NCBI GenBank assembly: GCA_030581615.1
Contig: JAKTTT010000019.1
Coordinates: forward strand, 62,001 to 126,000
Direction of reading: 5' to 3'
DNA: 64,000 nt
Source: Alloascoidea africana
Taxonomy: Eukaryota; Ascomycota; Alloascoideomycetes; Alloascoideales; Alloascoideaceae
Translations under genes and position numbers: made by a program
Notes under the pieces: model-generated
What the model was told of the DNA's origin: nothing
The model's input: the letters and a program-made list of their open reading frames with translations, nothing else
The model's database searches: none
Shown here: positions 19,477 to 59,601 of the stretch, piece after piece
Layout: each line of letters opens with the position of its first letter
Position numbering within the stretch: the stretch's first letter is position 1

Positions 19477-19709
19477 TAATTATTTTTTTGTAAATCAGCC
19501 TAATTTTGCAGTAATGTGTATAGAGTAAATAGAAAACTCATGACATAGTTTTAATGGGAGCATTTGCTTTGGATTTCTTGGTTTCAACGGATAAGCCGGA
19601 AGATTGGGGCCTAAGCGCCCGGACAACAAAAACTCAAAACACTACAAGCTTTTATTTGAAGATCCATAGTAGCGAAAATGTCAACAAGCGTGCTGAGCCA
19701 AGCAATGCC

Positions 19710-20885
19710 ATGGTCCTGTTTCTCATCTTCATCTTTGTCTCCATAATCGGCCAGCATTTGGCGGTAGCATCTCCAGGTGACAAGCTTCCTCAGTTTTCGT
19801 CCTGCCTTGACCAATGCATCGACCAGATCTGCAACGGGAACGGGAACGGGAACGGGAACGGGAATGGGAATGGTAATGACCAGATTGATATTAACTCTGG
19901 TCTTCAGTTTACGCCTTTACCACTGCCTTTACCTTTACAATTGTTGCATTGGTCGTGCGAGACAAACTGCGACTTTGAGTGTCAGTGGCATGTAACTGAG
20001 GAGAGACTCCGAAATGGAGAGAGCATCGAACAGTTTCATGGCAAATGGCCATTTCGACGGCTTTGGGGAATCCATGAACCGGCTTCAATGGTGTTTTCTA
20101 TTATGAATTTATGGGCTCAGTATTGGGGGTATTGCCATGTTTGGAAACATATCGGGAAGGCCAGTTCTCAGAGAATAAAGTCCAGAAAGATGAAACATGA
20201 CGGTGACGATAAGGAAGAGGAAGAGATTTTACTCTGGAAGTACTACATGTTTGCAGCCTGTGTTGGCATGAATGCCTGGCTTTGGTCTACTATTTTCCAT
20301 ACTCGTGATTATCTCTGGACGGAGCGAATGGATTACTATTCTGCTGGATTTGCAGTCATGACGGGTTGTTTTATTTCATTTGTTCGGGCGTTTCGTCTTG
20401 ATAAACAAAGCCGCAAACTTGTACGATATACAGTGGGCTTTTTATGCTACGGATTCTATTGCTCGCACGTTTACAAAATGCAGTTTGTGGAATGGGGTTA
20501 TGTCTACAATATGACTGTTCAGTGTGTTATTGGGGCTATCCAGTATACAGTTTGGGTTCTTTTGGCGCTACATGTTTTCTACAAGTTACAGACCAAGAAA
20601 GAGATTTATAATCCAAATTCTGAAGCTTCAGGGAGTGACAACCCCCAGAAGACCACTGCCAAATCGAGTAATCTCTGGGCGTTATCACCTTTGGGTGTTG
20701 TATTTACAATGGTGGTGTCAATGAGTCTTGAACTTCTCGATTTTCCTCCAATATGGTTTTCGTTCGATGCACATAGTCTTTGGCACGCGGCGACTGTGTT
20801 TCCCGCCATCTACTGGTTTAAATGGATGGTTTGGGATTACGACTATCTTAAACATGTTGTAACTGTGAAAGATAAACAAGAATGA
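19710..20885 (+). CDS. PER1: PER1 copy A, GPI phospholipase A2 of the ER
   Basis: 391 aa starting at the ATG that opens a clear signal peptide (MVLFLIFIFVSIIGQHLAVA); an upstream in-frame ATG at 19554 would bury that signal. Conserved Per1/PGAP3 features: paired cysteines in the luminal domain (CLDQCIDQIC, CETNCDFECQWHV), EQFHGKWPF, WSTIFHTRDYLWTERMDY, several membrane spans, and FPPIWFSFDAHSLWHAAT. A run of Asn-Gly dipeptides (GGGAAC repeats near 19840) interrupts the luminal region and is probably a length-variable insertion. Per1 removes the sn-2 acyl chain of GPI anchors as the first lipid-remodelling step. A second copy lies at 58432-59601. Confidence 0.94.
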   Translation: MVLFLIFIFVSIIGQHLAVASPGDKLPQFSSCLDQCIDQICNGNGNGNGNGNGNGNDQIDINSGLQFTPLPLPLPLQLLHWSCETNCDFECQWHVTEERLRNGESIEQFHGKWPFRRLWGIHEPASMVFSIMNLWAQYWGYCHVWKHIGKASSQRIKSRKMKHDGDDKEEEEILLWKYYMFAACVGMNAWLWSTIFHTRDYLWTERMDYYSAGFAVMTGCFISFVRAFRLDKQSRKLVRYTVGFLCYGFYCSHVYKMQFVEWGYVYNMTVQCVIGAIQYTVWVLLALHVFYKLQTKKEIYNPNSEASGSDNPQKTTAKSSNLWALSPLGVVFTMVVSMSLELLDFPPIWFSFDAHSLWHAATVFPAIYWFKWMVWDYDYLKHVVTVKDKQE

Positions 20886-40868: not shown

Positions 40869-42355
40869 TCTTTTTTTGAAAATTTTTTGCAAATAAAATT
40901 TTACCTTAGAACTGTTCCAAAAGATTTTGGCCTAATCTCTGGTACAGCAGATACTTGTAACTAAGAAAATGTAGTTTTTTATGACCAGAACTAGAATGCT
41001 TAAGAAGCAGATTAAATTTAAAAGACAAAGGGGCGATTCTAAACATTTGCGAGCCTATACATTCCAGCCAATAGGGTTCTAGTCTGGAAGAGGAAGAACA
41101 TTGAAAGGACCAAAAAAGGTCGATCAGACAAACGCCATAGTGCACTTTTAATCCTCGTCATCTGTCCAGTTAACTTCGATGGCCAAGGGTTTCTAGCGAA
41201 ATGCTAAAACCTGAAACCATCTGTCAACGAACTATAACCAATTTCAAGTGCCCCTGGATGTGAAACGGCTTTTTCGAAACACAGCGCTAGAGAACTGTCA
41301 CCCAACTCGATAAGTTATATCAATTTGAATAGACTTGAAAAAATAGCAGGCATTATCAGTGGAAGCTGAAAAGAGCTCTCAGAGGTTCGCCACCATAAAA
41401 AGCCTATTATGCTTGGCTTGAGCACCATGATTCCATTTCCTTGGTTCCTACGCAATCTATGTGGCACTGAAATGGAATGCCATGGGAGTAGAGTATTTGG
41501 CGGCGTTAGACTTAATTTTGCTATTTTCTCTAGCTTATAAGTTTCATCAAGACGCCCCTTTGCAGTGATTGATTAGTGTCAAGCTAGGTGAGAAGCTCCA
41601 ACTCAGTAGAGTCTGTGTACAGGCCTAGGTTGTCCATTTGGGTGTCTTCTCAATTACAGGCCATTCCAACTCCGGTTAGTAGAAGAAAGTGCGTGCGCTT
41701 CAATAGCCTCAAAGTTCAGAAGTCTCAAAGACAGGTATTCTTGCATCAAGAATGAAAAATACCGAAGAACGCCGTGCGTTGCGCCTGTCTGAATTTTCCA
41801 CGCTTGTCTTGAAAAATATGGAGGGCGGACCGAAAAGTCACTTTCCCGGAACTCCACCTGGACCTGGGTCTGAGCAATCACCATTAGACACTACCGCGAC
41901 CTCACTAGTGGCTTAGGAATTTAAGATTGGCAGCCATGAATGGGGAAACACGTTTAAGATGGTGTGTGTCTCATTGTCGGAGACTGAGCACAAGCCTCCT
42001 TCCTAACCAGGAGGCCGCACACAGTTTGAAGATAGCGCCAGTCTCACTGCTCGGCTGCTCATCTCGCATTGCAGTTCGAGCCGGCCTCTCCAATCTCGCC
42101 TGTCCCGCCAGAAATGCTTCCTGTTCAGACGAAACGATTCGTGAGAAAGGGAAGGGGTTGTCCGAGTGTGTGTGAAAAAGGACCCGATCCTCCGGGTCGA
42201 CGCCAGCCCGGTCCTCACCCACCCGCTGTCACGTGTTGCGAATTCCGCTATTTTTGCAGGCGCTCGCTATTTATATCCGCATTGCCCCCCCCTTCGACCT
42301 CATATATATTGCTTTGCCTCTCCTTTACTTTTCTCTGTTGCTCAACTCTCCCACG
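40869..42355. other. Intergenic, tRNA-Leu to HAC1, including HAC1 promoter
   Basis: 1.5 kb. From 40869 to about 41900 no supported gene is seen. From 41900 the sequence becomes GC-richer. CACGTG lies at 42230-42235 and TATA-like elements at 42268-42276 and 42301-42310, about 50-90 bp before the HAC1 ATG. Reading frames running into HAC1 from here have no ATG. Confidence 0.5.
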
Positions 42356-43491
42356 ATGTCGATACCAGAAATACCAGCTCAGTGCTCCCAATCCCCATCT
42401 CCTGAACCCTCATTATCCTTGGATGCAAACTCAATCACCGTCACCGTTGGTGCCGGTCCAAACAAGCGGAAAGAGGTTGTAACGCTGCCTTTACCGCCTG
42501 GATCTCTTCCACCCAGGAAACGAGCAAAGACAAAAGATGAAAAAGAGCAGCGGAGGATCGAACGAATAATGCGAAACCGACAAGCTGCCCATGCATCAAG
42601 AGAGAAAAAACGAAGACATGTTGAAGACCTGGAAAAACAGTGTGTTTTACTTAAGGAGAAAAACAAAACATTGACCGAACAACTCAAGAGTGTGAAGGAA
42701 CAAGAAGTTGAATTGATCAATCAGCATGAAGTTATGAGTGATCAAATCCGGCAACTTACCCTTATTGTTGAGAAGACCATCGGAATAAGGTTGCCCAAGT
42801 TTGAAAGCCCAAGCAAAGATGCAGTTTCCGAGTCTGCTTTATTATCAGTGACAGACTCTTCAGCAGAAGTTGCAGATCTCATCGCAGAATCCAAAAAATC
42901 AGATGACAATTCTTCACTTAAATCGCCTGAGTTGAAAGCTATAAAAAGTTGTAGTCCTTTGATGGAGGGCGAAAAAGTCGAATCATCTCCCTTCTCATCG
43001 ACCGTGTCATCAAGGGCAACCAGCAGGTCCACAACTCCTTGTTTGAGCAAAGAGGACGCGGGTGTTCTTGTACCTACGCATTATCCAGCAGCGATAATGC
43101 CTCTTACCTTCCTGCAGCGTTGGTTAAGCAAGAACCTTCCGTCTCTTCTTTGTTTTCAAATAATGGGGTGAATACCGATCTTGCTACTGGAACAATGTCC
43201 CTGTTTGAAGATCCGTTTTTTGATCACAAATGCCAATCTAAAGGGGCAAATCTGGACTACGGTTCTCTAACTCCTGATTCACTCCTGAACGGGTTGTTCA
43301 ATGACCACAAAGTCAAGATTGAAGAGGATTCCTCCTTTACCCAGCTATCTTCCACGGAAGAGGAAGAGAAACTCTCTTTTTCTTTCAACGAGGATGATAA
43401 TGACCTTATGATGTTTAATGACATTTTGGCAGTTCAGGATTTGTTGAAAGGAGATTTGTTGATCCCACAGGATGAAAAGATTTCTATTTAA
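42356..43491 (+). CDS. HAC1: HAC1, bZIP factor of the unfolded protein response, Ire1-type intron
   Basis: The Hac1 bZIP is unmistakable: PPRKRAKTKDEKEQRR, IERIMRNRQAAHASREKKRR and a leucine-zipper region beginning VEDLEKQCVLL. Unspliced mRNA encodes 271 aa, ending at 43171. Removing 26 nt (43089-43114) shifts into a second frame and gives 369 aa (42356-43088 plus 43115-43491), with a new tail: AALVKQEPSVSSLFSN, SLFEDPFFDHKC and an acidic FNEDDNDLMMFND activation-type region. This is the classical arrangement in which Ire1 cuts the mRNA in the cytoplasm and tRNA ligase joins it when unfolded proteins accumulate in the ER. ATG 42356 follows the TATA-like elements closely. Confidence 0.96.
43078..43114 (+). 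promoter_or_regulatory. Ire1-dependent 26-nt HAC1 intron and its 5' hairpin
   Basis: The intron is 43089-43114. At the 5' site a perfect 8-bp stem (GCATTATC 43078-43085 with GATAATGC 43093-43100) presents the 7-nt loop CAG|CAGC, matching the Ire1 consensus CNG|NNGN. At the 3' site the loop CTG|CAGC (43112-43118) is flanked by an imperfect stem. Excision moves translation into the frame that is open to 43491. Confidence 0.9.
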
Positions 43492-44188
43492 TTTACTTGT
43501 GCCGCGATTATAAGTTTGGGCTTATCCAACAATTACTGTATTTTGTGGATAGGCTAGACAACTACGGGGGAGAGCGAGAGCTTTATGAAGCATTTCGTTT
43601 GACTACATTCGAAGGAAAGAAGCGGGACAGACTGAACGATTGGAAGATTTGAAGAATCACTAATGCGTAAGACAAAGAGGTTTGATCGATTTCGAGGCGC
43701 GTTTCGTACTGCGACTGGTCGTCTATAACCTTGCTTTGCAACCATTATTTGATGCTCTTTTCTTGATCGTTTACGGCTACCTGCATCGAATACTTTCAAG
43801 GAGTAGCTCAACTTTGCTCAAGGTTCTCTTCTTTCTCGAAAAGTCCTTAGCGGAAAGTAGAGTAGTTGTATGAAGTGTAATTTTAGAATTTTGAAAAAAA
43901 GGTGAAAAGGAAATGTTAGATTTTAACTGGACAAAATATCAATGGACAAATTGAAGATAAGTCTGTAAAGTTTTGATTGATTAGGAAACGGCGCTTTGAA
44001 GTGTTTTGTGGTTTGTAAAGTCCGGGTAACCCCAGCCCTAATCCTTTTGTGACAGACATTCCTAATTAGGAAATATGTGATCTTTCAGAGTAATCGTCAT
44101 ACTGCACACAATCTTATGCCTGTTCCATGGAAGAGTGAGAGCGAGAGCATACTTGAGAGTTTGGAATCTATATCACACCAACCACAAC
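43492..44188. other. Intergenic, HAC1 3' end and RPS16 promoter
   Basis: 697 bp. A Reb1-like CCGGGTAA at 44022-44029 lies about 160 bp before the RPS16 start. No additional gene was recognised. Confidence 0.5.
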
Positions 44189-58431: not shown

Positions 58432-59601
58432 TCAACTTTTTGACTTTACACTCTTCAGGTAGTTATAATCCCATACCATCCACTTGAACCAATACATGGG
58501 CGGGATAACAGTAGCCGCATGCCAGAGACAATGTGCATCAAAGGTGAACCATATGGGAGGAAAATCGAAAAGTTCCAAACCCATTGATGCTATCATTGAA
58601 AGCACAACGGCGGCGGGAGTCAGTGTCCATAGGTTTGATCTTCGTTGATATGGATACAATTGACTATCCTTTTTTTGCAAAGTTATAAAGTTGAAGATCG
58701 AAAGTCCTATCCATATCGAGTACTGGATAACTCCAATAAACACCTGCACTTTCATGTTGTAACCGTAATCCCATTTGATGTAGAGCATTCTATAAATATG
58801 GTAAATGTAGAATAGATAGCATGCTAGACCAGCTGCATGTCGCATAGGTTTGTTCTCCTGTTTATCCAGTCTAAATAGCCTTACAAAGGCGACAAAACAC
58901 CCTGTTATTATGTACAGGTCTGCGGACAGATAATCCATTCTTTCTGTCCAGCGGTAATCTCTAGTGTGAAATACAGTGGACCATACCCAGGCATTCATGC
59001 CAATGACGGTGATGAGTAAATAGTACTTCCATAGTGATCCACCGCCGTCTCTAGGGATTTGGACATTTGACGCAGCCGGCCAAAAAGTTTCCAAATCTTG
59101 GTTGGGAATGGTACGCTTCTTTGAGCCATACTGTAGTAGTTTCTTCCCCGTGTGAGTCCAAATGTGTTTGAACCCCCAGTAATGGGCCCAAAAGTTTAGG
59201 AGTGAGAACAAAACAGAAGCAGGTTCTTGTATAGGTCCGAGCCTTATAAAAGGCCACTTGCCATGGAACTGCTCTACACTTTCCCCCCGCGAGAGCCTTT
59301 CCCTTGTGACGTGCCACTGGCATTGGAAATCGCAGTTTGATTCGCATTTCCAGAAAAACAGCCTCAGGTGCCAACTCAAAGGTTGACTGGAAAAGCTGAG
59401 CGAAGAGTCGTATTCAAAGTCCAGGTCGTAGGAGAGATGTTTGTTGTTTATGTCTGTCTGGCAAGTTTGCAAAACGCACTGGTTAAAACAGGATTTGAAA
59501 CGAGGGAGCTGGTCTCCTTTCGAAGCACCGCATTGTGGAACTAGAACCAGAAACAGCACCAGCGACCAGAGAAAGAACGGGGGAAGTGTAAGAACCTTCA
59601 T
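58432..59601 (-). CDS. PER1: PER1 copy B, GPI phospholipase A2 paralogue
   Basis: 389 aa with a clean signal peptide (FFLWSLVLFLVLVPQCGA). All Per1 landmarks seen in copy A are present: CFNQCVLQTCQ, CESNCDFQCQWHV, EQFHGKWPFIRLG, WSTVFHTRDYRWTERMDY and FPPIWFTFDAHCLWHAAT. Copy A's Asn-Gly repeat is absent, and the luminal loops differ. Both copies keep an intact reading frame and the conserved histidines and aspartates, so both are probably active. A GPI-lipid-remodelling role is shared. The copies sit about 38 kb apart on opposite strands. This one diverges from ISC1, another lipid-metabolic gene. Confidence 0.94.
   Translation of the reverse strand: MKVLTLPPFFLWSLVLFLVLVPQCGASKGDQLPRFKSCFNQCVLQTCQTDINNKHLSYDLDFEYDSSLSFSSQPLSWHLRLFFWKCESNCDFQCQWHVTRERLSRGESVEQFHGKWPFIRLGPIQEPASVLFSLLNFWAHYWGFKHIWTHTGKKLLQYGSKKRTIPNQDLETFWPAASNVQIPRDGGGSLWKYYLLITVIGMNAWVWSTVFHTRDYRWTERMDYLSADLYIITGCFVAFVRLFRLDKQENKPMRHAAGLACYLFYIYHIYRMLYIKWDYGYNMKVQVFIGVIQYSIWIGLSIFNFITLQKKDSQLYPYQRRSNLWTLTPAAVVLSMIASMGLELFDFPPIWFTFDAHCLWHAATVIPPMYWFKWMVWDYNYLKSVKSKS

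Follow-up and report, generated by a model that had tools for sequence, protein, structure and literature searches.

A predicted 26-nt Ire1 intron in HAC1 of Alloascoidea africana, a yeast with five HAC1 genes and one Ire1

HAC1 encodes the bZIP master switch of the unfolded-protein response, and the locus studied here raises the question whether its mRNA is a substrate of Ire1 and whether it is the only one in its genome. The gene lies on the + strand of a 64,000-nt stretch of Alloascoidea africana DNA (contig JAKTTT010000019.1, positions 62,001 to 126,000), which we call the window and whose numbering is used throughout; the gene carries the contig label C19. The initial annotation had proposed that a 26-nt Ire1 intron separates two HAC1 reading frames, and the following features were found:

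42356-43088, + strand: coding part of HAC1 exon 1, an open reading frame with the bZIP region at about 42539-42706 (Pfam bZIP_1).
43089-43114, + strand: predicted Ire1 intron of 26 nt with the loops CAG|CAGC and CTG|CAGC and a frame switch, located inside the RF04247 match.
43115-43491, + strand: coding part of HAC1 exon 2 in the spliced frame, 124 full codons and a stop, joined only after excision.
42356-43171, + strand: open reading frame of the unspliced (uninduced) HAC1 form, 271 aa.
43078-43100, + strand: 5' splice hairpin of 8 bp with the loop CAGCAGC at 43086-43092, with a counterpart in all five paralogs.
43106-43124, + strand: 3' splice hairpin with the loop CTGCAGC at 43112-43118 and two U-U mismatches in its stem.

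Excision of 43089-43114 converts the 271-aa frame, which stops at 43171, into a 369-aa bZIP protein that stops at 43491, as had been annotated, and Pfam bZIP_1 matches residues 62-117 of the spliced protein (5.5e-9). Such a frame change in the C-terminal part of a bZIP protein is a hallmark of Ire1-spliced HAC1/XBP1 mRNAs, as are twin hairpins with 7-nt loops of the form CNG|(C/A)NGN, the Ire1 loop rule (PMC6037481, PMC8104961). Both loops were reproduced at the annotated coordinates and fit this consensus. The 5' hairpin, GCATTATC-CAGCAGC-GATAATGC, pairs 43078-43085 with 43093-43100 and thus has the perfect 8-bp stem that had been described, closing a 7-nt loop; the 3' stem is weak and imperfect, consisting of a C-G pair, two U-U mismatches and three pairs. 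As the 26-nt excision can be placed in seven ways, its first base ranging from 43088 to 43094, that all yield an identical mRNA, the exact junction CAG|CAGC..CTG|CAGC is taken from the loop rule.

On the + strand of the window the HAC1 5' loop is the sole one of 177 CNGCNGN loops with at least five closing pairs (G-U allowed), and on the - strand four of 177 have as many. The complete architecture, a loop with six or more closing pairs that is followed at 15-60 nt by a second loop, was scanned for in the window and six other loci (227,012 strand-summed bases, with the HAC1 paralog loci included by choice) and occurs five times, in four HAC1 genes and at one other site; when an 8-bp stem is required, only the four HAC1 genes are left. 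The other site, the sole non-HAC1 occurrence in the scanned DNA, is a CGGCTGC loop at 59072-59078 (- strand), closed by a 6-bp stem and followed 31 nt further on by another CNGCNGN loop. It lies on the sense strand of the gene at 58432-59601 and is probably due to chance. This gene (- strand) and another one in the window at 19554-20885 (+ strand) code for membrane proteins that are related, as judged by eye, and that we take to be PER1-like.

When 42300-43600 (1,301 bases) was searched against 4227 Rfam families, the best match was RF04247 (bZIP non canonical Hac1/Xbp1 intron) at 43060-43139, with 36.7 bits, an E value of 4.8e-5 and an alignment covering model positions 1-72 of 72. Although significant, this score is 4.3 bits short of the gathering score of 41 bits, and we therefore do not file the intron as a member of RF04247; our claim concerns its function, which would be that of a HAC1/XBP1 intron. 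Across the 23.2-Mb genome there are four matches at E up to 10, the best of them being window HAC1 (E 2.0e-4). Matches two and three (24.9 and 24.5 bits) are the HAC1 paralogs C8 and C6, and the fourth, on contig C25 (20.2 bits, E 4.4), was treated as chance. The paralogs C48 and C2 gave no match at E up to 10, so that three of the five genes are recognized (C19, C8 and C6). As 7 of 14 control genomes, the named seven being prokaryotes, also give matches at E up to 10, none of them above the cut-off, low RF04247 scores alone prove little.

A translated genome search with the spliced HAC1 protein yielded six matches at five loci, two of the stretches belonging to C19, and over the matched part the identity to window HAC1 is 66% for C6, 50% for C8, 45% for C48 and 60% for C2. 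HAC1 is a five-gene family here, and three of the further paralogs contain complete introns, as predicted from their sequences:

C6: predicted intron of 41 nt, 3' loop CTG|CAGC.
C8: predicted intron of 29 nt, 3' loop CTG|CCGT.
C48: predicted intron of 32 nt, 3' loop CCG|CTGC.

The 5' hairpin has its counterpart in every gene of the family, with seven of the eight stem pairs in C2. A genome scan with a hairpin pattern and up to three mismatches returned the five HAC1 places without mismatch, which is so by construction because the pattern was written from these five hairpins, and two others at three mismatches (the reversed pattern gave two matches); the result is that there is no closer other place in the genome. 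All four complete introns (C19 26, C6 41, C8 29 and C48 32 nt) have a length of 2 mod 3, and all eight of their loops fit C.GC.G.; this fit is partly by choice, as the 3' sites were found via a motif scan, which does not hold for the common phase and the helices described below. None of the four has a perfect 3' stem. Excision opens tails of 125 (C19), 204 (C6), 65 (C8) and 121 aa (C48), and the unspliced frame continues past the 5' cut for 26, 34, 60 and 125 codons, respectively, and for 170 codons in C2. Among the spliced-frame tails, with the alternative frame of C2 included, two of ten pairs align significantly, C19 with C6 (p 0.005) and C8 with C48 (p 0.001); among three unspliced pairs C8-C48 does so (p 0.001), as expected from short near-identical DNA. 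The unspliced tails of C8 and C48 are hydrophobic, but selection as a membrane anchor was rejected, since redrawing the synonymous codons of the spliced frame gave p 0.17 for C8 (counting open frames of 19 or more codons) and a marginal 0.05 for C48.

A duplicated block and a mixed assembly were both rejected as the origin of the paralogs: HAC1 is the only gene common to the window and the 8.5-9 kb around each paralog, each being compared with the window; there is just one Ire1 RNase domain in the genome, and SUV3 is likewise represented by one full-length match. A tree of the five bZIP regions did not resolve their branching. The hexamer CACGTG, a possible stress element, is located at 42230-42235, 126 bases upstream of the start codon of window HAC1, and is absent from the 800 bases before the assumed starts of the other four genes. 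Close to C8 there is a tRNA gene with an insertion, probably a tRNA intron (L011:2190-2282, - strand). Gene duplication extends beyond HAC1, as the gene for the 49-kDa subunit of complex I is also present in two copies (C18:89091-89903, L024, and C34:228183-228995, L025), which align over 1,264 columns at 82.8% identity, and the rest of the 3.8-kb loci yields no further alignment. Its protein is nearest to chains labelled NUCM, the name used in Yarrowia, which points to a budding yeast.

The exon ends flanking the predicted introns can pair with each other, in window HAC1 as follows:

43039-43074, + strand: exon-1 strand of the predicted exon-exon helix (flank duplex -38.5 kcal/mol, z -7.0, p 0.001).
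43122-43163, + strand: exon-2 strand, the partner of 43039-43074.

With the 45 nt before the 5' hairpin paired with the 45 nt after the 3' loop and dinucleotide shuffles as reference, z is -7.0 for C19, -3.9 for C6, -2.9 for C8 and -5.5 for C48 (p 0.001, 0.002, 0.008 and 0.001, respectively), and C2, for which a non-canonical 3' site was assumed, has no such helix (z +0.7, p 0.76). A second setting with whole exon ends gave p 0.001 for each of the four genes and 0.96 for C2. Measured against coding DNA, for which equally spaced flanks were drawn from 14 further ORFs in the window, the p values are 0.0007 (C19), 0.003 (C6), 0.033 (C8), 0.0013 (C48) and 0.56 (C2). As the helix sequences differ between the genes, it is pairing rather than sequence that is kept. 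By analogy, the arrangement resembles the zipper-like structure of XBP1, which holds the exons together for ligation (PMC6037481). Folds in which the 5' hairpin was forced and both loops were left open lie above the minimum fold by 2.3 (C19), 0.3 (C6), 2.8 (C8) and 0.9 kcal/mol (C48); the 3' hairpin forms in those of C8 and C48 and is absent from those of C19 and C6, and the predicted minimum fold of C19 differs from the Ire1-ready fold.

The genome encodes one Ire1 RNase domain. The corresponding ORF of 1127 residues (L022:2074-5454) gives matches to 2be1, an entry for the luminal domain (E 2e-30), and to 3fbv, which covers kinase and RNase (E 2e-135), and the residues around a His, which we take to be catalytic, are aligned. 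At the positions of S. cerevisiae Y1059 and K992, two residues tied to substrate stringency (PMC8104961), the alignment has Ala and a conserved Lys, respectively, with positions counted by hand. An Ire1-spliced HAC1/XBP1 mRNA further presupposes that its genome encodes, besides Ire1, a suitable RNA ligase, and here there are two divergent Trl1-type tRNA ligase genes:

C61:43779-44552 (L030): first Trl1-type ligase gene.
C18:307632-308345 (L031): second Trl1-type ligase gene.

Each contains ligase, kinase and phosphodiesterase domains and a K.NG motif, the Lys of which is presumably the adenylated one; the ligase domain of the C18 copy scores 42.6 bits, that of the C61 copy 159.2 bits (ORFs started at inner Met codons). 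Animal XBP1 exons, in contrast to this fungal pair of ligases, are joined by RtcB. With the machinery present, the annotation of HAC1 with a 26-nt Ire1 intron agrees with the sequence tests, apart from the Rfam gathering score and the imperfect 3' stem.

Based on this anatomy, the open frames, the predicted helices and the machinery genes, we consider it highly probable that Ire1 splices window HAC1 under ER stress and, most likely, the three paralogous mRNAs as well. Upon ER stress Ire1 would cleave both 7-nt loops of the HAC1 mRNA, one at CAG|C and the other at CTG|C, the paired exon flanks would keep the exon ends together while the 26-nt intron departs, and a Trl1-type ligase would join the exons. 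The resulting frame shift would give a 369-aa bZIP activator with a new tail in place of the 271-aa form, and the single Ire1 would most likely splice the C6, C8 and C48 mRNAs (introns of 41, 29 and 32 nt) in the same way.

Alternatively, the hairpin might be kept merely through the protein motif H-Y-P-A, with the intron being a relic in some paralogs, as all five genes encode [HR]Y[PS]A at the hairpin and C2 retains the 5' hairpin without a stemmed 3' loop (within 2.5 kb) and without the exon-exon helix. We regard this as very improbable: the pairing is preserved by codon choice, and in the four genes that have a 3' site, loop motif, phase and exon-exon helix are retained too. Equally small is the chance that Ire1 cuts the paralog mRNAs for decay (RIDD-like) and does not splice them. 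The lone 5' site of C2 and the Ala at the stringency-linked Y1059 position would suit such cutting, whereas four of five paralogs have two matched sites, an exon-exon helix and an open frame after excision, and Ire1 retains the Lys at the K992 position. That a spliceosomal intron or a sequencing frameshift joins the two HAC1 frames is the least probable reading, for although short spliceosomal introns occur in yeasts and the downstream frame becomes readable only through some change of frame, the loops, the hairpin, the RF04247 match and one architecture and phase repeated in four paralogs speak against it, and four errors at one same codon in four HAC1 genes are not credible. An intron excised by Ire1 is the best reading of the window HAC1 sequence and the most likely one.

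C2 is the exception in the family. No C.G[CA].G. loop with at least four of six closing pairs is found within 2.5 kb, and a long intron as in C. parapsilosis was rejected on this ground; a near candidate, CCG|TCGA, would give 31 nt, a length of 1 mod 3 and hence of different phase, and would run into a stop six residues later; it was likewise discarded. C2 is possibly spliced at a 3' site of another, unrecognised form; possibly, it is a fixed uninduced form or a target of decay.

Window HAC1 can be compared with Ire1 introns described in the literature. Yarrowia lipolytica HAC1 likewise has a short Ire1 intron in a budding yeast, of 29 nt (PMC10608004), compared with 26 nt here and five HAC1-type genes in the A. 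africana genome. With the HAC1/hacA introns of filamentous ascomycetes (20-26 nt) window HAC1 has the length range and the CNG|CNGN twin stem-loop in common; the gene of V. dahliae additionally carries a conventional intron, instead of which there is a paralog family here (PMC8071499). The mammalian XBP1 intron is of equal length, 26 nt (PMC4490496). CTG-clade introns vary widely in length (19-848 nt) with constant hairpins, but they do so between species and not, as here, among the paralogs of one genome (PMC6222058). S. cerevisiae HAC1 shares the loop rule CNG|(C/A)NGN in 7-nt loops and the tail change; its intron (252 nt), however, is about tenfold longer and pairs with the 5' leader. A translation block of this type, based on pairing between leader and intron, was rejected here: with the 250 nt before the ATG as leader and shuffled introns as reference, p is 0.78 for window HAC1, and pairing is significant in none of the five paralogs (p 0.30-0.87). 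The annotated closeness to short fungal introns holds, with lengths of 19-29 nt on record, and as fungal introns span 19-848 nt and those of filamentous ascomycetes 20-26 nt, 26 nt is unremarkable by itself.

Taken alone, the 26-nt HAC1 intron is therefore ordinary; what is new is that a single Ire1 goes with an enlarged HAC1 family. S. cerevisiae Ire1 cleaves a single mRNA only (PMC8104961), and four predicted splicing substrates for one Ire1 seem to be new among fungi. The literature searched, in which subscription journals are thinly covered so that absence is not firm, contains no precedent for several HAC1 genes in one genome and no match for 'HAC1 paralogs' or 'HAC1 paralogues'; the nearest candidates deal with splice variants or with the bZIP family as a whole.

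We tentatively speculate, as a possibility that is still doubtful, that one Ire1 controls all five HAC1 genes, four of them being spliced to bZIP proteins with different tails in a graded or combinatorial response, while C2 would be a fixed 'uninduced' bZIP protein, possibly serving as a brake or being cut a single time for decay, and the second Trl1-like ligase may join the module. The Ire1 pathway of yeasts is usually told as one enzyme and one mRNA, and four predicted substrates together with a half-site paralog constitute a natural experiment. Among introns of 26, 29, 32 and 41 nt the length differs from paralog to paralog and phase and exon pairing hold. The family separates what cutting needs (the loop) from what splicing needs (a second loop, the exon-exon helix and the phase), and it poses the question whether the unfolded-protein response of a yeast can be combinatorial.
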